A DNA stretch of 64,000 nucleotides from Epilithonimonas zeae (lineage in GTDB: Bacteria; Bacteroidota; Bacteroidia; Flavobacteriales; Weeksellaceae): positions 372,001-436,000 of the forward strand of contig NZ_FSRK01000001.1 in the NCBI RefSeq assembly GCF_900141765.1, given 5' to 3'. The notes under the pieces were generated by a model that was not told the origin of the DNA, ran no database searches, and saw only the letters and a program-made list of their open reading frames with translations. The first letter of the stretch is position 1. Every line of letters starts with the position of its first letter. Below, one piece after another: positions 26,195 to 42,073 of this stretch. The position numbers and the translations under genes were made by a program.

Positions 26195-26962
26195 ATGAAA
26201 AAATTCTATTCTTTATTGGCAGCAGTCGCTTTGACTGCAACAGTAAATGCGCAAGTATTTTCTGAAAACTTTGATACATTAACAGGAGCATCTACTTACA
26301 CTGGAGGAAACTCTGGAGGATGGAGTGGAAGTATTGCTACAGGACCTTTGACAGGCAAATTAGCTGGCTGGGTAAATACTTCAGCTGCAGGAGGTGATAA
26401 ATGTCTTAAATTAGGTTCTGGAAGTAATATGGGAAGTGCAATTACTCCTGAATTCTCTACAACTGCAACTGCACTTAAATTAACTTTCAGAGCAGGAGCT
26501 TGGAATAGTACAAACGAAAAAGTAACAATCACTGTAAGTGTTGCTGGCGGTAGTGCTACAGTAGCAGATGGTGCAATCACACTAACTAAAGGAGAATTTA
26601 ATACTTATACAGTTAATTTAACAAATGTTGTAGGACCACTAAAGCTTAAATTTTCTGCAGATGTAGCTGCTAATAACCGTTTTTTCTTGGATGATGTTTT
26701 AGTTGAAGATGCAGCTACAATGGCAGTAGGAGATGCTACAAAAGGAAAAGCTAACTTGGTGAAAAATACAATCGTAGCAAATGAATTAATCTTCGGAGCT
26801 TCTGCAAAAGTATCAGTTTACAATACTGCTGGTCAAGTTGTAAAAACTGCTGCGGTTGCTGAAAACTCCAGATTAGATGTTTCTGCTTTGCCAAAAGGAA
26901 CTTATGTAGTAACGGGTCTTGTTAATGGACAAGCTGTATCTCAAAAAGTAATTAAGAAATAA
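26195..26962 (+). CDS. T9SS-type secreted protein 1 of a tandem cluster
   Basis: The 255-residue protein begins with the signal peptide MKKFYSLLAAVALTATVNAQ. A beta-rich middle of about 150 residues follows (FSENFDTLTGASTYTGG, and FFLDDVLVE at its end, a choice-of-anchor/CBM-like jelly-roll pattern). It ends with an 80-residue C-terminal domain (KVSVYNTAGQVVK...KGTYVVTGLVNGQAVSQKVIKK) of the T9SS sorting type. It should be exported and anchored on the surface or released. The ligand is unknown. A terminator follows at once. Confidence 0.85.
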   Translation: MKKFYSLLAAVALTATVNAQVFSENFDTLTGASTYTGGNSGGWSGSIATGPLTGKLAGWVNTSAAGGDKCLKLGSGSNMGSAITPEFSTTATALKLTFRAGAWNSTNEKVTITVSVAGGSATVADGAITLTKGEFNTYTVNLTNVVGPLKLKFSADVAANNRFFLDDVLVEDAATMAVGDATKGKANLVKNTIVANELIFGASAKVSVYNTAGQVVKTAAVAENSRLDVSALPKGTYVVTGLVNGQAVSQKVIKK

Positions 26963-26989
26963 TCTTAATTTATCTAATAAACTATATTG

Positions 26990-27017
26990 CGCTACCATTT
27001 TTGGTAGCGTTTTTTTG
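26990..27017 (+). terminator. Terminator after T9SS-type protein 1
   Basis: The stem CGCTACCA/TGGTAGCG is followed by seven T on the plus strand. Confidence 0.85.
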
Positions 27018-27118
27018 TTAATATAATATTAAGTAAAATGAATTTAAATGAAACTTTAAGTTATTGATTGTTATTCTATTATTAATATTTAGTCAATACA
27101 GAATAGGGAGAGTCATGA

Positions 27119-27126
27119 TAGATTTG
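27119..27126 (+). promoter_or_regulatory. -7 box of T9SS-type protein 2
   Basis: TAGATTTG lies 31 bp before the ATG and matches TAnnTTTG. With terminators on both sides, the gene appears to be its own transcription unit. Confidence 0.45.
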
Positions 27127-27157
27127 TCACAAACAAAATCTTTAATACATACTAATT

Positions 27158-27937
27158 ATGAAAAAGTTCTATTCTTTATTAGCTGCAGTTTTTTTAACTG
27201 CAACAATCAATGCACAAATCTATTCTACAGGATTTGAATCAAGCGATAGTTTCTCATCAGACAACGTTTACAATAATACAACAGTTACGTTTAGTGGTGC
27301 TGCAGGGAAACAATGGGGGACGTTCTACGGAACACCTTCTACCACTTCTCCGCTGACAGGGAACCAATCTATGCAAATGAGATGGTACACAAGTGCGACT
27401 AGCAGCAAAGGTTACACGTATACTAATTTCAATACTACTGGTGTTGAGAAAGTGACATTTAGTGCGGCCAATACCAATGGAATTAATGTTATCGTTTCTT
27501 ATTCCGCCAATAACGGAACCACTTGGTTAAGCCCACAAACCTTCACATTAACTACTACAAAAACCGAGTATACTTATAATGTGCCATCGTCAGCTACAGG
27601 AGGACTTAGATTCAAATTTGAATTAACTTATGCTACAGCTCCTACTGCGACATCCAGACTCTATATTGATGATGTCAAATTCTTTGCGCCTACAATGGCC
27701 GCAATAGATGCTGCGAAAGGAAAAACTAATTTGGTTAAAAATACAATTGTCTCAAACGAATTGATTTTTGGGACTTCTGCAAGAGTATCTGTTTATAACA
27801 CAGCTGGTCAGGTTGTGAAAGTTGCTGAAGTGACTGAAAACACAAGATTAGAAGTTTCGGCTTTGCCAAAAGGAACTTATATCGTAACAGGTCTTATTAA
27901 TGGACAAGCAGTTTCACAAAAAGTAATTAAAAAGTAA
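27158..27937 (+). CDS. T9SS-type secreted protein 2 of a tandem cluster
   Basis: The 259-residue protein has the signal peptide MKKFYSLLAAVFLTATINAQ, nearly identical to that of the gene before it. It has a different jelly-roll-like middle (YSTGFESSDSFSSDN, ending LYIDDVKFFAP) and almost the same C-terminal sorting domain (RVSVYNTAGQVVK to the KVIKK end). The shared ends and unshared middle suggest duplication followed by domain divergence or exchange. It is exported; the ligand is unknown. Confidence 0.85.
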   Translation: MKKFYSLLAAVFLTATINAQIYSTGFESSDSFSSDNVYNNTTVTFSGAAGKQWGTFYGTPSTTSPLTGNQSMQMRWYTSATSSKGYTYTNFNTTGVEKVTFSAANTNGINVIVSYSANNGTTWLSPQTFTLTTTKTEYTYNVPSSATGGLRFKFELTYATAPTATSRLYIDDVKFFAPTMAAIDAAKGKTNLVKNTIVSNELIFGTSARVSVYNTAGQVVKVAEVTENTRLEVSALPKGTYIVTGLINGQAVSQKVIKK

Positions 27938-27959
27938 TTATTCCCTTTAATTATTACAA

Positions 27960-27989
27960 ATCCAGTATCGTGAGATGCTGGATTTTTTG
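27960..27989 (+). terminator. Terminator after T9SS-type protein 2
   Basis: The stem ATCCAGTATC/GATGCTGGAT (one G-T pair) is followed by a T-run. Confidence 0.8.
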
Positions 27990-28237
27990 ATGATTTAAAA
28001 CAGGATTAACATATAGTTCTTTTAATATGTTTACTTTTGTACCAGCAAAAAAGGGATAGTTTATGAAGATGTAAATATGTTAATTTTATGAAGGCAAAAT
28101 TTTACAGCCTTGATTAAATCGAACTTTATGAATATGGAAATGTTAAAAAATAAACAAAATTTTGCTGAATACATTTTTTTATTAACTTAGCATCCCTTTA
28201 AATAATATTATAAAACAATTTTTTAAACTTTAATAAA
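27990..28237. other. Intergenic region between T9SS-type proteins 2 and 3
   Basis: The full gap is 300 bp. It holds the terminator above, an isolated -7-like box TACTTTTG at 28032-28039 with no gene behind it, and the promoter of the next gene at 28162-28190. I see no RNA gene and no open frame longer than ten codons. Confidence 0.5.
28162..28190 (+). promoter_or_regulatory. Promoter of T9SS-type protein 3
   Basis: TTG, 18 bp, then TAACTTAG, a one-base variant of TAnnTTTG, with a 47-bp leader before the ATG. Confidence 0.5.
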
Positions 28238-28999
28238 ATGAAAAAAATCTTTACAATTTTAAGTGTTGCTGCGGTATCTTTGGTATCTGCTCAAAATTTA
28301 GTAGTTAATGGTGGATTTGAAAGTGGTTTAGCTCCTTGGACTGCTGGAACTGGAACTGGTTACACTGCACCTACAATTTCTACAACTGATGCGCATACAG
28401 GAAGTAACAGTGCTACTTATTCGCCGTCTGCTACCACAGGATTTTTCCAAAATGTTCCAGTAACGGAGGGAAAAACATATGTTATTTCTTTTTGGTACAA
28501 AACTTCTAGTGCTTCTGCTGCTAGACTTTGGAGTATTTACAAAAATGCTTCTGGAGCACCTGTATATACTACGCCAGATAATACTACAGATCCATTCAGA
28601 ACTAATAATAAGTATTTGCCTGCTGCCGCTGTTTGGACACAGTATACAGCTGAAATGCCTGCTGGAACAGCTGTAACTAATCTTGATGTCGCAATAAGAG
28701 CTTACGGAGGAACAACTTCTTCTTTTGACGATGTTATGGCCTATGAAAAAGGAACAATGGCTGTTGTTGACTTCTCTAAAGATAAATATAGCTTAGTTAA
28801 AAATACTGTAGTTGGAGAATCTATCGCTTTCGCTAAGACTGCTGATATCCAAATCATCAACGCTGCTGGACAAGTTGTTAAAGCTGCTAAAGTAATAGAA
28901 GGTTCTACTTTGAACGTTGCTTCTCTTGCTAAAGGTGTTTACATCGTTACAGGTTCTGTAAACGGAGAAAAAGTAGCTCAAAAAGTAATCAAAAACTAA
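28238..28999 (+). CDS. T9SS-type secreted protein 3 with CBM-like domain
   Basis: The 253-residue protein has a signal peptide ending VSAQ (residues 1-18). A carbohydrate-binding-like beta-sandwich follows (residues 19-165), with the opening LVVNGGFESGLAPW and the strand YVISFWYKTSS typical of CenC/CBM4-9-type modules. It ends with the same class of C-terminal sorting domain (IQIINAAGQVVKAAK...GVYIVTGSVNGEKVAQKVIKN). The family resemblance suggests glycan binding on the cell surface. It is the most diverged of the three neighbours. Confidence 0.85.
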   Translation: MKKIFTILSVAAVSLVSAQNLVVNGGFESGLAPWTAGTGTGYTAPTISTTDAHTGSNSATYSPSATTGFFQNVPVTEGKTYVISFWYKTSSASAARLWSIYKNASGAPVYTTPDNTTDPFRTNNKYLPAAAVWTQYTAEMPAGTAVTNLDVAIRAYGGTTSSFDDVMAYEKGTMAVVDFSKDKYSLVKNTVVGESIAFAKTADIQIINAAGQVVKAAKVIEGSTLNVASLAKGVYIVTGSVNGEKVAQKVIKN

Positions 29000-32204: not shown

Positions 32205-33563
32205 TTACAAAGAATCTTGATAGGCTTTCCAACCTTCGTTTTTGTAACGTAAAGCTTCTTGTTCAGGCTCGTCAGCTTTGTAAATTCCGCGTCCCACGAT
32301 AATGAAATCTGTACCGTAATTTTTAATCACGTGTTCCGGAGAATTATATTGTTGCCCTTTGTCATCACCGCTTGTTCCCAAATTCACACCTGGTGTGAAT
32401 AGTAAGAGCTGGTCAGAAACTTGATTCTGCGCCACACATCCGATAATGCTTGGATGATTTTCTATGACTTTCAAAGCTTCTTCGCGATAATGAGAATCTG
32501 TTAAAGTTCCTTCAGAAGACATTCCTAAAATTGCTACAACACCAACATTTACAAAGCAATCTAAACTTTTGCTTCCTCCAATCACGTGAGAAGTTACTAA
32601 GTCTGCCCAATTGGAAATTTTATAAGTTCCGTAAGAAAATTGTAATTCCTGAGTATTTCCGATATCAGCAAATTTTCGGTCTTCCATTAAAAGGAAATTA
32701 TGTTTTGTTGCCAAATCTTTAAGTGGAAGAATCGTTTCATCAGCATCGAAATCATTCAGAATATCAATATGTGTTTTAAGAGCCACAATATGAGGACCAA
32801 CAAAATCAGCGAAATCCAATAATTCTTTTGTAGTGATGAAGTCTGCCGAAGCAATTAGGTTTGACTTTTTCTCAATAGCAATTTCAAGGATTTTCTTCGC
32901 GAAAGAATGTTCAGCAACTTTCAGTTTTTGTTCGTAAGACAATCGTTTTTTCTCTTCGAAAACTACCTGATTTCCGTTCACAAAATCCTGAATTCTTGCA
33001 ACTTCTTCGTCATCAATATAACTAACTTCTCTCAGGATTTCTACAACTTCAGAAATATTGAAAAGTGAATGCACTTTGTAACCTTTGTCTTCCAGCTTTT
33101 CTTTTCCTCCTTGTTGTCTGTCGAGAACTACAACAATATCAGAAACCTTGATGCCTTCATTTTCAACTTCGTCAATCGTTTCTACCAAAGATTTTCCGGA
33201 TGTAATCACATCTTCTACCAAAAGACAGTTTTGACCTTTTTCGTAGATGCCTTCAATCAGTTTTTTTGTTCCGTAAGCTTTTGCTTCTTTTCGTTTAATA
33301 ATTAATGGAATGTAACTTTGAAGAGACATTGCAGTCGCCATCGGAAGTGCCGCATAAGGAACACCGCAAATGATATCGAAATTATCCAACGGAAGCATTT
33401 CCAGAAGATAATTGGCGAGTTTTTTAAGGATTTTGGGGTCAGAAGCTAGTGGACGCAAATCCACGTAGAACGGACTTTCTATACCGCTTTTCAATGTGAA
33501 ACGCCCAAATTTAATAATCCCGAGTTTGTAACACTCGAGGAAGAATTCTTTTTTACTTTCCAT
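32205..33563 (-). CDS. Bifunctional orotate phosphoribosyltransferase / OMP decarboxylase
   Basis: This is a fusion of the last two steps of UMP synthesis (orotate to OMP to UMP) in one 452-residue protein. Residues 1-190 are OPRT: FTLKSGIESPFYVDLR and the PRPP loop LLVEDVITSGKSLVETI. Residues 215-452 are OMP decarboxylase: ALKTHIDIL and the catalytic MEDRKFADIGNT (the K and D charge network), then the phosphate-binding end TPGVNL...VGRGIY. The OPRT-first order is the one of the eukaryotic UMP synthase. No frameshift is evident. A promoter (TTG, 18 bp, TAAATTTG) precedes the gene at 33584-33612. Confidence 0.93.
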   Translation of the reverse strand: MESKKEFFLECYKLGIIKFGRFTLKSGIESPFYVDLRPLASDPKILKKLANYLLEMLPLDNFDIICGVPYAALPMATAMSLQSYIPLIIKRKEAKAYGTKKLIEGIYEKGQNCLLVEDVITSGKSLVETIDEVENEGIKVSDIVVVLDRQQGGKEKLEDKGYKVHSLFNISEVVEILREVSYIDDEEVARIQDFVNGNQVVFEEKKRLSYEQKLKVAEHSFAKKILEIAIEKKSNLIASADFITTKELLDFADFVGPHIVALKTHIDILNDFDADETILPLKDLATKHNFLLMEDRKFADIGNTQELQFSYGTYKISNWADLVTSHVIGGSKSLDCFVNVGVVAILGMSSEGTLTDSHYREEALKVIENHPSIIGCVAQNQVSDQLLLFTPGVNLGTSGDDKGQQYNSPEHVIKNYGTDFIIVGRGIYKADEPEQEALRYKNEGWKAYQDSL

Positions 33564-35942: not shown

Positions 35943-35974
35943 AAAACTCCTGAACAATTAAGTTCAGGAGTTTT
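35943..35974. terminator. Bidirectional terminator
   Basis: A 13-bp perfect stem (AAAACTCCTGAAC/GTTCAGGAGTTTT) with A- and T-runs lies between the convergent serine hydrolase and acyltransferase genes. Confidence 0.85.
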
Positions 35975-35996: not shown

Positions 35997-37268
35997 TTAA
36001 ATCTCTTTGAATTGCAAATTCTGCTCTTCAACTTGTTTGTCTGCAAGGTTTTTGTAATAGCCAGTTTCTAATTTTTTGTAAATAGAATCAAAAGCTTCCA
36101 ATGTCTCGTTGATCTCGGCATCTGTGTGAGAAGCCGTTGGAATCAATCTTAGTAAAATCATTCCTTTTGGGATTACAGGATAGGAAACTACAGATGTAAA
36201 AATCAAATAGTTTTCTCTCAAATCTTTCGCCAACATCATCGCTTCCATTGGTCCACCTTTGATGAAAACCGGTGTTACGCAAGTGTTTGTGTCTCCAAGA
36301 TTATAACCAATTTTCTTAAGTCCGCCTTGTAGTTTTTCAACATTTTCCCAAAGTTTGGCTTTGATTTCTGGTCTTGATCTTAGAAGTTCCAATCTTTTCA
36401 AACCTCCGATCACCATTGGCATTGTTAAAGATTTGGCAAAAATTTGAGACCTCAAGTTGAATTTCAAATAACGGATGATTTCTTTATTTCCAGCTAAGAA
36501 CGCTCCGAAACCAGCCATAGATTTTGCGAAAGTAGAGAAGTAAACATCAATCTGGTCTTGGCATCCTTGCTCTTCTCCAGCACCCGCTCCGGTTGCTCCA
36601 AGCGTCCCGAATCCGTGTGCATCATCTACCAAAATTCTGAAACCATATTTTTCTTTAAGAGCACAGATTTCTTTCAATTTACCTTGTTGTCCTCGCATTC
36701 CGAAAACACCTTCGGTAATGACCAAAATTCCACCTCCGGTTTCTTCGGTTACTTTTTGAGCTCTTTGTAAGTTTTTTTCAAGACTTGCAATATCATTGTG
36801 TCTGTAGGTAAAACGTTTGCCAGAGTGCAATCTAACGCCATCCACGATACAAGCGTGAGAATCTACATCGTAAACGATCACGTCATTTCTGGAAACCAAA
36901 GCATCGATGCAAGACACCATTCCTTGATAACCGAAATTCAATAGATATGCTGATTCTTTTTGAACAAATTCTGCCAATTCTCTTTCAAGCTGAAGGTGCT
37001 GGTCAGTTTCTCCGGACATTGCTCTCGCACCCATTGGATAAAACATTCCGTATTCTGCAGCAGCTTTTGCATCGGCTTCCAAAACATCTGGATGGTTGCA
37101 AAGTCCCAAATAATCGTTTGCGCTCCAGAAAATCACGTCTTTCCCTTGGAACTTCATTCTCGGGCCAATTGGTCCTTCTAATCTTGGGAAAATATAATAG
37201 CCTTCTGCGTAATCTGCAAATTGTCCTAGTGGACCCGGATTTTGTTTTATTCTTTCAAAAATGTCCAT
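35997..37268 (-). CDS. PLP-dependent alpha-oxoamine synthase family acyltransferase, probable cysteate fatty acyltransferase
   Basis: This 423-residue fold-type I PLP enzyme belongs to the family of serine palmitoyltransferase, KBL and BioF. Conserved parts are SANDYLGL (about residue 49), His138 stacking the cofactor (DSHACIVDG), LVDDAHGFGTLG (Asp215/216, His218) and the Schiff-base Lys249 in FSTFAKSMAG. Such enzymes condense an amino acid with an acyl thioester. The gene directly downstream of a cysteine synthase-like gene suggests that the amino acid is cysteate and the product the sulfonolipid precursor 3-keto-capnine. A terminator lies between the two genes. Serine palmitoyltransferase or 2-amino-3-ketobutyrate ligase are alternatives. 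Confidence 0.65.
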   Translation of the reverse strand: MDIFERIKQNPGPLGQFADYAEGYYIFPRLEGPIGPRMKFQGKDVIFWSANDYLGLCNHPDVLEADAKAAAEYGMFYPMGARAMSGETDQHLQLERELAEFVQKESAYLLNFGYQGMVSCIDALVSRNDVIVYDVDSHACIVDGVRLHSGKRFTYRHNDIASLEKNLQRAQKVTEETGGGILVITEGVFGMRGQQGKLKEICALKEKYGFRILVDDAHGFGTLGATGAGAGEEQGCQDQIDVYFSTFAKSMAGFGAFLAGNKEIIRYLKFNLRSQIFAKSLTMPMVIGGLKRLELLRSRPEIKAKLWENVEKLQGGLKKIGYNLGDTNTCVTPVFIKGGPMEAMMLAKDLRENYLIFTSVVSYPVIPKGMILLRLIPTASHTDAEINETLEAFDSIYKKLETGYYKNLADKQVEEQNLQFKEI

Positions 37269-37301
37269 TTTTTCTAACTGATATTTTTTATTGATTGAAA
37301 A

Positions 37302-37330
37302 AACCTTTTGTAATACAAAAGGTTATAAAT
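37302..37330 (-). terminator. Intrinsic terminator between the two PLP genes
   Basis: The minus strand has the stem AACCTTTTGTA/TACAAAAGGTT with almost no loop, followed by TTTTTT. It would limit read-through from the cysteate synthase-like gene into the acyltransferase gene. Confidence 0.75.
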
Positions 37331-37344
37331 TTTGTGATTAAATT

Positions 37345-38382
37345 TTACTTGATGATTTCTGTTTTAAACACTTCATCATAGTTGTGGAAACAATTGTTGA
37401 TAAAGCCTTGTTCTTCCATCCATTTGTCACTGTAAACTTTGGTAATATAGCGAGAACCGTGGTCTGGATAAATTAATACAACCAAATCATCTTCTTTGAA
37501 CTCGTGAGAATTCGCATATTGAATCAAAGCCTGAGTTACAGCTCCAGTTGTGTAACCACCCATAATAGCTTCTTTCAAAGCAATTTCGCGGGTTCTGTAA
37601 GCTGACATCTCATCATTAACTCTTACATATTCATCAATCGTGTCAAATAAAAGTGCACCCGGAATCAAGTTTTTCCCAAGACCTTCAATCTGATAAGGAT
37701 GAATTTCTGTTTTATTGATTTTTCCTGTCTCGTGGTAAGTTTTCAGAATAGAGCCGTCTGCATCTACGCCAATTACTTTGATATCAGGATTTTGTTCTTT
37801 TAAATATTTTGCTGAGCCGGAAAGTGTTCCGCCGGTTCCTGTGCACGCAAATAGGTGTGTTATTTTACCTTCTGTCTGCTTCCAGATTTCAGGACCTGTG
37901 GTTTGGTAATGCGCATCAATATTCAATTCGTTGAAATATTGATTGATGTAAACCGAGTTAGGTGTTTCTGCAGCAATTCTTTTTGCTACTTCGTAATAAG
38001 ACCTCGGGTCGTCTGCAGGAACAGAAGCTGGGCAAACATAAACAGTTGCGCCCAAAGCTTTCAAATAAGCAATTTTTTCAGCTTTTGTTTTGTCACTTAC
38101 TGCAAGGATGCATTTGTAACCTTTTACGATACAAACCATTGCTATGGAAAAACCTGTATTACCGGAAGTTGTTTCTACGATTACAGAATCTGATTTTAAG
38201 ATTCCTTGTCTTTCCGCATTTTCTATAATGTGAAGAGCGATTCTGTCTTTCGTAGAATGTCCAGGATTATAAGACTCCAACTTAGCGTAAACCGTCGCAG
38301 GAATGTCCTTGGTAACCTGATTTAACTTGACCAACGGTGAGTTGCCAATCAAACCAAGAATATTATCGTGTACATTCATCAT
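37345..38382 (-). CDS. Cysteine synthase/CBS-family PLP enzyme, possible cysteate synthase
   Basis: This 345-residue fold-type II PLP enzyme has its Schiff-base lysine at Lys45 in NPGHSTKDR; most O-acetylserine sulfhydrylases and cystathionine beta-synthases have GG/AGS in place of GHS. The substrate loop TTSGNTG (residues 71-77) and the phosphate cup GTGGTLSG are intact. The C-terminal IYPDHGSRYITKVYSDKWM resembles the CBS catalytic core. There is no CBS regulatory domain. Known cysteate synthases of this family use O-phosphoserine and sulfite. Its position before the acyltransferase favours that role, but plain cysteine synthase or CBS activity cannot be excluded. Confidence 0.6.
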   Translation of the reverse strand: MMNVHDNILGLIGNSPLVKLNQVTKDIPATVYAKLESYNPGHSTKDRIALHIIENAERQGILKSDSVIVETTSGNTGFSIAMVCIVKGYKCILAVSDKTKAEKIAYLKALGATVYVCPASVPADDPRSYYEVAKRIAAETPNSVYINQYFNELNIDAHYQTTGPEIWKQTEGKITHLFACTGTGGTLSGSAKYLKEQNPDIKVIGVDADGSILKTYHETGKINKTEIHPYQIEGLGKNLIPGALLFDTIDEYVRVNDEMSAYRTREIALKEAIMGGYTTGAVTQALIQYANSHEFKEDDLVVLIYPDHGSRYITKVYSDKWMEEQGFINNCFHNYDEVFKTEIIK

Positions 38383-38587: not shown

Positions 38588-41500
38588 ATGAAGAATTGGA
38601 CTTTTAAACAGTGGAACACCATCTTGGGATGGGTCATTTTTGTAATTGCATTTATCACTTATTTATCAACCATAGAACCCAATTTTAGTTTTTGGGATTG
38701 TGGAGAATATATTTCCTCAGCCGTTAAGTTGGAGGTTACCCACGCACCAGGAGCTGCTTTGTTTCAGTTAGTTGGAGCTGTTGTAGCATTATTTGCGTTT
38801 GGTGATGGTCAGCATTATTCTTTGGTAATTAATGCGATGTCTGCTTTGTTTAGTGCATTTACAATTCTGTTTTTATTCTGGACGATTACACATCTTGTAA
38901 GAAGATTGCTGAATAAAGAATTCGAAAATATAACAATTGCTGAAGAAATTGCAACTTTATTTGCAGGAGCAGTCGGCGCTTTGTGTTTTACATTTTCGGA
39001 TACATTTTGGTTTTCTGCAGTTGAAGGTGAAGTTTATGCGATGGCAAGTATGTTTATTGCATTGATTGTCTGGCTGATTACAAAATGGGAAAATGAATAC
39101 CTTGAAAAAGACAACGAGAGATGGATTATACTTTTATTCTTTATCATCGGATTGTCCGTAGGTGTGCATATGATGTGTATGTTGGCGCTGCCTGCAGTTT
39201 GTCTGATTTATTACACAAGAAATTATAAATTCACTTGGAAGTCATTTTTGATAGCAAATGCTGTAACTTTAGTTATTCTTGCCATTGTATTCAAAATTAT
39301 TTTTCCTGTGATAATGACATTGTTTGGGAAATCTGAAATATTCTTTGTTAACGGATTAGGTTTGCCTTTCCACTCAGGGACAGTTTTCGCATTTGTTATT
39401 CTGGTTGTTCTTTGTTATTTGTTCATTACTTACACAAGAAAAACTGGGAAATCATTGTATCAAACTATTGCCTTATCTATAGTTTATATGATGATAGGCT
39501 TCTCTTGCTGGTTGGTAATCCCAATCCGGGCAATCGCCAATCCACCAATGAACCTTAATGACCCAGATAACGCCATCGGAATGTTGGATTATTACAATCG
39601 TGAACAGTACGGGGATTGGCCAACTTTGTACGGTCAAAACTACACGGCTTATCTAGACCCGAACGGTATCCAGAAAAATGAGGACGGAAGTTATAAAACG
39701 AAAAAAACGGGTGATACTTACGAAAGAGATGCTCAGACAGGACGTTATCGTTTGGTAGGAGAGAAGTTCAATTATGTGTTTAGTGAAGAGCACGTTGGTT
39801 TCTTGCCAAGGATGTTCAGTGAGGATAAATCGGTGATGCCAAATTATATTTCGATGTATGGTGCACCAGATTTTACTTTCAATTATGGTAATGAGCAAAT
39901 CTCTGAAAGTCCTGAAGCGAAACAATTCTTTGATGAACTACGTCAGAAATACGAGAACGGAACGATTAAAATGGATGATTATCTGAAGGCGAAACAATTC
40001 GGAATTATCAATGTTCAGAAACCGACGTTAGCTCAGAATCTTGATTACTTCATTACGTTCCAGAATTATTATTACTTCGGTAGATATCTCCTTTGGAATT
40101 TTGCAGGCCGCCAGAATGATGTCGAAGGTCATATGGAAAATACGAATGGAAACTTCATTACAGGTATTCCTTTCATCGATAATAATATTTGGGGAGACCA
40201 AAGCGAGATGCCGGCTAAATTCCAGAATGAAAGTACGGTTAAATTCTTTATGTTACCTTTAATCTTAGGATTACTAGGTTTCTTCTTCCAACTAAATAGA
40301 GATTTCGGAAGATTCTATGCGATATTGTCTTTATTCATTTTAACCAGTGTCGGGATTGTATTCTATACAGGGATGAAACCATTTGAGCCTCGTGAAAGAG
40401 ATTATGCGATGGTTGGCTCTTTCTATGCGTTTGCAATTTGGATTGGATTAGGTGTAGCTTCCATTTATTGGCTGCTTCAGAAAAAAGTGAAAAGTAAATC
40501 AGCTCAGATTATTGTAGGCGTGGTTTTGTTGGGAATTCCTTTTATGATGGGCTTCCAGAATTATAATGTTCACGACAGAAGTGGACGTTACACGGCTTAC
40601 GATTACGCTTATTCAAGTTTGAAATCTTTGCCTAAAGACGGAATAATGTTCGTTTACGGTGATAATGATACCTATCCGGTTTGGGCCATTCAGGAGACTG
40701 AGGAATTTCGTCCAGACGTAAAAGTCGTGAATTTTACATTGTTATCTACGCCTTGGAATATCGATCAGGTTAAAAGAAGAACATATAACTCAATGCCTGT
40801 TCCATCAACTTTGACTCACGAAGATTATCGTGAAGGTTCCAACGATCAGGTTTATATGATGACGAAAGACGATTGGTCTAATATTTTTGCGAATCTAAAA
40901 GAACAGGGCGCACCGGATACAGAATTTGCAGCCTTCAGAAAATACCTGACTCAGGATTCGATTACAATGAAAGAAGCTGTTAACTTCCTGAAAATGAAAT
41001 CGCCTGAAAAAGATGAAATTGTGAAAATGATTTTCGGAGAAGAGCGTTATCAGAAATTCAACTTCCTTCCGGTTTCTAAATTTGTACTTCCGGTGAATGT
41101 CAATAATGCTGTTAAATCAGGAATTATCACACCGGCCGAAGCGCAGAAAGCAGAAAAGCAAATCGTCATCGATTACAAAGGTTCTAGTATGTTCAAGAAT
41201 AATATGATGATGTTGGATATCCTGGCGAACTTTGATTGGAAACGCCCAATTAACTTCTCAAGCGGTGGGATTTATGACGGAAGCAATCTATTCTTCTTGT
41301 CCAATTATCTTAAGTTTGATGGATTCAGCTACAGATTGGTTCCAATCAAAACCGAAGAGTCTCCGGATGGCGAGTTAGGAATGGTGAATGCGGACGAACT
41401 TTACAACATTGTGAAAAATTACAGATGGGGTAATTTCAAAGATTTGAAAGTCCATTTTGACGAAACTTGTACACAGAATATCATCGGTTACAGATCATCG

Positions 41501-42073
41501 GCAAGTAGAGCGGCTGAGGCTTTGGTTCTGAAAGGTGAGAAGCAAAAGGCAATTGAAGTTCTGGATTTGGCAAGTAGAGAAATTCCTGTTTCTAAATATA
41601 ACGACCCAAGGTCTTTGAGTTCTATTGTTTATGCTTATATCGTTGCAGGACAAGAGCAAAAAGGACTGAAACTGGCAGAAGATCTTAAGAAAGGAATCTT
41701 CGAAGAGTACGATTATTACACAAGATTATCGCCAAAATTCCAGGTTTATGCAGCGAGACAGATGAAAACCAAACCAATGGAATATTCTTTGGTAGTTGGC
41801 GCGGTTTCCGATGCTTATAATAAAATTGGTCAGAAAGATAAAGGCTATGAATATCTTGTCAACTCTCTGAATGTTATCGATAAAAGATTCAATACATTCA
41901 TTAAGGATTTGCAGGAGATGGGCAAAGAGAAAGCTTTCAAAAAAGCAGATGATGTACAGAAGGTAACATCGTTCTACTCGTATCTATTTGATATTATGAA
42001 AGATTACGATACGACTTACGAAGCTGAAAAGATGGATAACATCACAAAACAGCTGATGAAAGTCACGCAGTAG
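38588..42073 (+). CDS. DUF2723 / TMEM260-like membrane protein
   Basis: This 1161-residue protein has about 12 TM helices in its N-terminal half. The N-terminus WDCGEYISSAVKLEVTHAPGAALF (about residues 37-60) is the diagnostic DUF2723 motif, with the acidic residues expected for a GT-C-type glycosyltransferase. The second half is a large soluble domain (after about residue 690, YVYGDNDTYPVWAIQE), then helical repeats near the end (ALVLKGEKQKAIEVLDLA, TPR-like). The animal relative TMEM260 is a protein O-mannosyltransferase, so a role in protein or surface glycosylation with a lipid-linked sugar is a reasonable inference. A terminator follows. Confidence 0.85.
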   Translation: MKNWTFKQWNTILGWVIFVIAFITYLSTIEPNFSFWDCGEYISSAVKLEVTHAPGAALFQLVGAVVALFAFGDGQHYSLVINAMSALFSAFTILFLFWTITHLVRRLLNKEFENITIAEEIATLFAGAVGALCFTFSDTFWFSAVEGEVYAMASMFIALIVWLITKWENEYLEKDNERWIILLFFIIGLSVGVHMMCMLALPAVCLIYYTRNYKFTWKSFLIANAVTLVILAIVFKIIFPVIMTLFGKSEIFFVNGLGLPFHSGTVFAFVILVVLCYLFITYTRKTGKSLYQTIALSIVYMMIGFSCWLVIPIRAIANPPMNLNDPDNAIGMLDYYNREQYGDWPTLYGQNYTAYLDPNGIQKNEDGSYKTKKTGDTYERDAQTGRYRLVGEKFNYVFSEEHVGFLPRMFSEDKSVMPNYISMYGAPDFTFNYGNEQISESPEAKQFFDELRQKYENGTIKMDDYLKAKQFGIINVQKPTLAQNLDYFITFQNYYYFGRYLLWNFAGRQNDVEGHMENTNGNFITGIPFIDNNIWGDQSEMPAKFQNESTVKFFMLPLILGLLGFFFQLNRDFGRFYAILSLFILTSVGIVFYTGMKPFEPRERDYAMVGSFYAFAIWIGLGVASIYWLLQKKVKSKSAQIIVGVVLLGIPFMMGFQNYNVHDRSGRYTAYDYAYSSLKSLPKDGIMFVYGDNDTYPVWAIQETEEFRPDVKVVNFTLLSTPWNIDQVKRRTYNSMPVPSTLTHEDYREGSNDQVYMMTKDDWSNIFANLKEQGAPDTEFAAFRKYLTQDSITMKEAVNFLKMKSPEKDEIVKMIFGEERYQKFNFLPVSKFVLPVNVNNAVKSGIITPAEAQKAEKQIVIDYKGSSMFKNNMMMLDILANFDWKRPINFSSGGIYDGSNLFFLSNYLKFDGFSYRLVPIKTEESPDGELGMVNADELYNIVKNYRWGNFKDLKVHFDETCTQNIIGYRSSASRAAEALVLKGEKQKAIEVLDLASREIPVSKYNDPRSLSSIVYAYIVAGQEQKGLKLAEDLKKGIFEEYDYYTRLSPKFQVYAARQMKTKPMEYSLVVGAVSDAYNKIGQKDKGYEYLVNSLNVIDKRFNTFIKDLQEMGKEKAFKKADDVQKVTSFYSYLFDIMKDYDTTYEAEKMDNITKQLMKVTQ

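Follow-up and report, generated by a model that had tools for sequence, protein, structure and literature searches.

The locus and its genes

The window, i.e. the whole stretch of 64,000 nucleotides analysed here, comes from the 4.08 Mb genome of Epilithonimonas zeae. According to its list of open reading frames, two tandem genes lie on the minus strand 76 nt apart, the one for a PALP-fold enzyme directly upstream of the one for an enzyme of aminotransferase fold (Table 1); both reading frames lie where the preliminary description placed them. For the downstream gene the comparison took in the 80 top-ranking loci out of at least 585, and among these named relatives its product is 98% identical in Epilithonimonas mollis and E. 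hispanica, 84-88% identical in Chryseobacterium named to species and up to 96% identical in some records labelled only "Chryseobacterium sp.". The divergent neighbor of the upstream gene (38588-42073, plus strand) encodes a TMEM260-like (PF11028) membrane protein of 1161 aa, which was matched in the same locus as the downstream gene in 75 of the 80 named loci.

Table 1. Features of the gene pair and of the unlinked reductase candidate (positions in the window unless stated otherwise).
Feature	Position	Strand	Remarks
capA-type cysteate synthase gene (P0002)	37345..38382	-	345 aa, PALP fold; PF00291; CapA clade
Cysteate-C-fatty acyltransferase gene, CapB/SulA/CFAT type (P0001)	35997..37268	-	423 aa, aminotransferase fold; clade apart from SPT and KBL
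Lys45 codon, expected PLP lysine of P0002	38248..38250	-	K in 118/118 CapA-clade and 38/38 other sequences
His42 codon of GHS, CapA-clade signature	38257..38259	-	H in 115/118 in clade, 2/38 outside
Lys249 codon, PLP lysine of P0001 (SulA Lys251)	36522..36524	-	alignment to SulA; CFAT alignment
Lys279 codon of P0001 (SulA Lys281; Ala in SPT)	36432..36434	-	K in 146/146 CFAT-like sequences; role as reported in PMC9304779
Terminator-like hairpin between capA and acyltransferase gene	37302..37324	-	consensus match and fold
Strong hairpin 3' of acyltransferase gene, before convergent serine hydrolase gene	35943..35974	.	scored on plus strand; likely shared terminator
Unlinked KdsR-like SDR gene, 264 aa	G000:C2:28720-29511 = L259:1501-2295	+	outside the window, same genome

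Two further observations were made by eye elsewhere in the window. A single frame of 452 aa (32205-33563, minus strand) is presumably a fused orotate phosphoribosyltransferase and orotidine-phosphate decarboxylase in PyrE-PyrF order, and three secreted proteins encoded side by side (253-259 aa each; 26195-28999, plus strand) are alike at their C-termini, with VIKK or VIKN as the last residues, and we take them to resemble cargo of type IX secretion.

The upstream enzyme groups with CapA

The closest match of the upstream enzyme in the PDB is 9k2p with 443.8 bits, followed by a cystathionine beta-synthase (CBS) with 262.7 bits. According to its title in the structure search 9k2p is CapA1 of Capnocytophaga ochracea, and it also ranks first for the predicted structure of the enzyme (pLDDT 87.8). 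In a tree of 65 rows the enzyme forms one clade (support 100/99) with 9k2p and 22 capA genes, most of them situated beside an acyltransferase gene, from the family of the window (f1, labelled Weeksellaceae in this tree) and from two other families of comparison (f2 and f5). The sister group of this clade holds the only other enzyme of this close type found in the genome, the paralog P0003, together with CBS-domain enzymes. The phylogeny proposed earlier as a check therefore places the enzyme with CapA1 of C. ochracea and apart from CBS/CysK-type enzymes.

The expected Schiff-base lysine was correctly assigned to Lys45, which is found in the stretch NPGHSTKDR with GHS as residues 41-43, so that the motif GHSxKDR, as defined in this analysis, is present with both K45 and H42. 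The description of GHS as unusual holds only in part: histidine is rare outside the CapA clade but it is the normal state inside, where the three exceptions have glutamine. A total of 16 alignment columns set the clade apart from the CBS/CysK-type rest, a separating column being at least 97% conserved among the 118 clade sequences and present in at most 10% of the 38 others, the frames in the alignment having at least 300 aa and more than 55% identity. These columns include His42, Thr71 beside the TSGNTG loop, Lys237-Asn238-Leu239 and Thr278, and such residues may shape a pocket for sulfite and phosphoserine.

One piece of evidence is less favorable. On the curated CapA model of NCBIfam (NF053679) the enzyme scores 551.6 bits, under the cut-off of 600. 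All four other f1 sequences scored are also under it (545.1-594.7 bits; two of them come from gene sets with an intervening reductase gene), a member of the f5 pair has 508.8 bits, three f2 sequences pass (616.6-654.1 bits) and three paralogs of CBS/P0003 type reach 438.7-470.1 bits. We read this cut-off as a narrow one, drawn for f2-like sequences, and not as the failure of a biological feature.

It could be that CapA, besides cysteate, also makes some cysteine, and that the pair in this way ties sulfonolipid synthesis to cysteine supply. In 23 of the 119 f1 genomes there is no second relative of the enzyme at E<=1e-60, which means that cysteine there has to be supplied by CapA itself or by some less closely related enzyme. 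However, more distant cysteine synthases would miss this threshold and the window's own genome does have P0003, so we regard a double function as rather improbable. Far less probable still is a role in sulfur-amino-acid metabolism, with the enzyme acting as a cysteine synthase or a CBS-type enzyme and only by chance neighboring an acyltransferase gene. The enzyme does share the fold and the PALP family with these enzymes, CBS structures are its next relatives, its score is below the CapA cut-off and P0003 is the sole alternative of this type found in the genome, but in the tree it joins CapA1 rather than P0003 or CBS, its clade carries the 16 signature columns, and the adjacency to the acyltransferase gene is seen in f1, f2 and f5. 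It is also under the curated cut-offs for cystathionine beta-synthase and cysteine synthase (TIGR01137, 370.1 vs 510.25 bits; TIGR01136, 281.5 vs 344.15 bits). Tree, curated models, signature residues and structure search all led us to reject this identity.

The downstream enzyme is of the cysteate acyltransferase type

Among solved sequences the downstream enzyme is closest to 28eh (646.2 bits) and to 7u7h, SulA of Alistipes finegoldii (546.7 bits); serine palmitoyltransferase (SPT) and KBL follow with 228.6 and 213 bits. Its predicted structure, built from 26 sequences (pLDDT 89.8), best matches 7u7h with a TM score of 0.92 and 60% identity, and SPT comes next with 31-32% identity. Lys249, named before as the Schiff-base lysine, is indeed part of TFAKS and corresponds in the alignment to Lys251, the PLP lysine of SulA, and all ten SulA residues reported to bind PLP or to line the active site (PMC9304779) are kept. 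The same source proposes Lys281 of SulA as a mark of sulfonolipid enzymes. The corresponding Lys279 is lysine in all 146 CFAT-like sequences (two PDB rows and 144 distinct frames of at least 390 aa, the window's own included, left from 196 after removal of identical and shorter ones), alanine in SPT 3a2b and asparagine in KBL. In the tree the enzyme belongs with SulA and CFAT in a clade supported by 100/99, on a long branch from the outgroup of one SPT and two KBL rows (BioF and ALAS were not represented), and not with serine palmitoyltransferase or KBL, the two placements that this second phylogenetic check was meant to detect; the program warns that a join near the long fusion proteins mentioned below may be false.

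That the enzyme could instead be a serine palmitoyltransferase making sphingolipids is hardly credible, for although it shares with SPT the superfamily and a nearly identical active site and has SPT among its best NCBIfam matches (NF047600, 285.9 bits), it is far under that model's cut-off of 640, has 547-646 bits to cysteate enzymes vs 229 to SPT, and shows both the support of the CFAT clade and Lys279. The enzyme is over no NCBIfam cut-off, and we rejected both the SPT and the KBL identity after comparing trees, curated models, signature residues and structure matches. When the genome was searched twice, only two alpha-oxoamine synthases turned up, this enzyme and a KBL, which indicates that the genome has no separate SPT.

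Homologs of the acyltransferase were also observed in other arrangements. Three of 14 genomes of the window's genus have a second copy, about 61% identical and away from capA (L115:5252-6490, L116:4901-6139, L117:4941-6170); in the tree this copy sits on a long branch among the f1 members of the CFAT clade. Proteins of 1108-1143 aa that keep Lys279 are encoded at L207:1646-5077 (plus strand), L208:3071-6397 (minus strand) and L209:1472-4852 (plus strand); in L207 and L208 the CFAT part is fused behind an AMP-binding domain of acyl-AMP ligase type and a phosphopantetheine (ACP) domain. Judged by their domains, such fusions are possibly self-loading cysteate acyltransferases. A glyoxalase-family gene lies 3' of the fusion gene in L207, and a gene in L208 is, by eye, presumably its look-alike.

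Conservation and spread of the pair

Both capA and the acyltransferase gene were matched in all of the 119 sampled f1 genomes, a count that includes a few capA matches truncated at contig ends and one capA, in G091, that looks broken. The synthase gene is directly upstream on the same strand in 104 of these genomes, with a median gap of 99.5 nt, and in 15 the two genes are apart or separated. The presence of both genes in every genome of the sample suggests that sulfonolipids are a core trait of the family. Of the 80 named loci 77 contain the pair; of the other three, L188 ends 56 bases short of the acyltransferase gene, L150 (a contig of a Bergeyella zoohelcum MAG) shows 3.3 kb upstream with no partner gene, and L203 (Riemerella anatipestifer) has none within 5 kb on either side. 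The genome G091 (genus g16) gives three capA-type matches, as if the gene were broken there, one of them a short match at C1:1541945-1542493 that covers residues 1-183 in an open frame of 218 aa.

On the larger scale of Bacteroidota a CFAT match (E<=1e-110) was found in 108 of 296 genomes; in 37 of these CapA was matched as well, at 55% identity or more. Adjacency among these 37 is uneven: 7/7 in f1, 0/17 in one f2 genus, 11/12 in the other f2 genera and 1/1 in f5. In the remaining 71 CFAT-bearing genomes no CapA match reached 55% identity at E<=1e-110; these may need another source of cysteate, and an archaeal-type cysteate synthase has been reported in Alistipes and Odoribacter (PMC10191378). 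Beside the acyltransferase genes of other families (L210-L212, L214-L221) no alternative cysteate enzyme was evident by eye.

The intergenic hairpin and transcription signals

The preliminary description had placed a terminator between the two genes, and a terminator-like hairpin is indeed located there by consensus match and fold. Read on the minus strand (37324-37302) it has 10 pairs, of which three are G-C, followed by a T-rich stretch, and its fold of -9.6 kcal/mol has a z-score of -3.97 against 200 shuffles. Of 20 distinct capA-cfat gaps that adjoin an acyltransferase gene with a product at least 88% identical, 15 have a hairpin by the same rule; overall the figure is 31 of 81 distinct gaps, the limits of each gap depending on the first start codon, and the hairpin is thus mainly a feature of near relatives. 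The hairpin may lower expression of the acyltransferase gene, and the two genes are presumably co-transcribed at least partly, through or past this weak structure. The hairpin 3' of the acyltransferase gene is stronger (-20.7 kcal/mol as minus-strand fold, z -5.71) and is likely a terminator shared with the convergent serine hydrolase gene.

Promoters of Bacteroidetes type have the pattern TTTG, 17-21 nt, TANNTTTG. This pattern has five matches in the window vs 4.31 expected, none of them upstream of the pair and one (38033-38065) within capA. Sigma-70-like sites in the window are also at chance number, 10 vs 9.8 expected; one of them, with 10 of 12 positions matching, lies upstream of capA (38487-38459).

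Proposed function of the pair

The trees, the adjacency, the co-occurrence in the family and the signature residues support the earlier proposal that the pair supplies the sulfonolipid pathway. Family placement, active-site residues, gene order and co-occurrence can be read directly from the genomes, and the expected substrates and products are those of characterised relatives; on this basis the two enzymes very probably catalyse steps one and two of sulfonolipid synthesis. With PLP on Lys45, CapA would replace the phosphate of O-phosphoserine by sulfite to give cysteate. The acyltransferase would then bind cysteate on the PLP at Lys249 and use a fatty acyl thioester, which is probably acyl-ACP, for the condensation, so that CO2 is released and 3-ketocapnine is formed. 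The function of such a pair has already been published for relatives and is not new as such; the pair described here extends the published pathway to another genus, Epilithonimonas.

Candidates for the third step

Genes for the later steps, reduction to capnine and N-acylation, were not recognised beside the pair. In seven of the 119 f1 genomes, all in two genera (g15 and g25), a gene for a short-chain dehydrogenase/reductase (SDR) is situated between capA and the acyltransferase gene. A CapC reductase is known from Capnocytophaga (PMC10191378) and from Ornithobacterium (PMC11211663), and the SDR inside the pair is presumably CapC. A relative of this operon-type reductase was not found in the window's genome at E<=1e-50, with 20 of 44 first-look candidates scored. 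The 3-ketodihydrosphingosine reductase model of NCBI has 41 matches in this genome, none above its cut-off of 400; at this level it is unspecific, since 13 of 14 control genomes give sub-cut-off matches too. A protein of 264 aa leads the list with 224 bits, 43 more than the next, and is encoded away from the pair (match at C2:28720-29499; Table 1).

This unlinked KdsR-like SDR has exactly one match (E<=1e-60) in 112 of the 119 f1 genomes, including the window's, and it is kept even in genomes of 1.7-2.0 Mb. The seven genomes that have no such match are exactly the seven with the reductase inside the pair (E<=1e-50, all first-look candidates scored in these seven), so that no genome is without both. 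The two types share 32% identity over 186 residues, and the YxxxK site is kept in 29/29 unlinked and 5/5 in-operon sequences. For comparison, the 23 genomes without a P0003-type second match at E<=1e-60 include five of the seven with the in-operon reductase, and the distribution of P0003-type enzymes therefore does not share this pattern.

A mirror image of this kind need not represent seven separate events. The tree of CapA and the acyltransferase (35 taxa) does not unite g15 and g25: g25 is the first to split off, and g15 goes with the large main group (99/95 support). In a second tree the unlinked SDRs (29 rows from 26 genera) are gathered in a single group, and a branch with 99.9/100 support separates them both from the in-operon type and from six other SDRs of the window's genome (seven rows, two of them being one gene). 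Many forks inside this group are weak, and six of its rows, in g4, g14, g18, g20, g21 and g23, were shortened by the start rule to 186-201 aa. The g7/g17/g24 group and g13 are earliest in this tree and also early in the tree of CapA and the acyltransferase. The simplest reading of these sequences is that the unlinked SDR has been inherited vertically, was lost in g15 and was lost or previously absent in g25, which would reduce the pattern to one or two events.

The mirror-image distribution also suggests which reductase acts on 3-ketocapnine. On balance we lean slightly towards the unlinked SDR as the working 3-ketocapnine reductase here and in most f1 genomes, displaced in two genera by a capC-type reductase of another lineage inside the pair. 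No lipid gene was evident near the unlinked SDR, whose commonest shared neighbors occur in 17/29 and 13/29 loci, the commonest being, as we take it, aroA. In Chryseobacterium gleum three of 12 tested reductases were active on 3-ketocapnine and none adjoins cfat1 and Cys1 (PMC11211663). A literature search in which few subscription papers were covered gave no paper that links the unlinked SDR to 3-ketocapnine reduction. The pattern singles out one candidate for step three and is thereby the newer lead of this analysis.

Comparison with known systems

CapA1 of C. ochracea (9k2p) belongs to the same clade as the upstream enzyme, has GHS before the PLP lysine and is 57% identical to it in the structural match; it comes from a different genus and its tree partner, L100, passes the CapA cut-off (616.6 bits), which the enzyme of the window does not. 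SulA of A. finegoldii (7u7h; PMC9304779) agrees with the downstream enzyme in ten of ten residues compared, Lys251 and Lys281 among them, and is 60% identical to it in the structural match, but the cysteate synthase reported for that species (PMC10191378) is of the archaeal type and not CapA. The cysteate-C-fatty acyltransferase 28eh, the closest solved sequence to the downstream enzyme with 646 bits, is absent among the 50 structure matches listed for its model. In C. gleum DSM 16776 both steps are reported for the enzymes Cys and CFAT (PMC11211663, citing Hou et al. 2022), and C. indologenes (L154) and other Chryseobacterium species carry the same adjacent pair as the window. There are published accounts of the sulfonolipid pathway in C. 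gleum, Capnocytophaga and A. finegoldii (PMC11211663, PMC10191378, PMC9304779).
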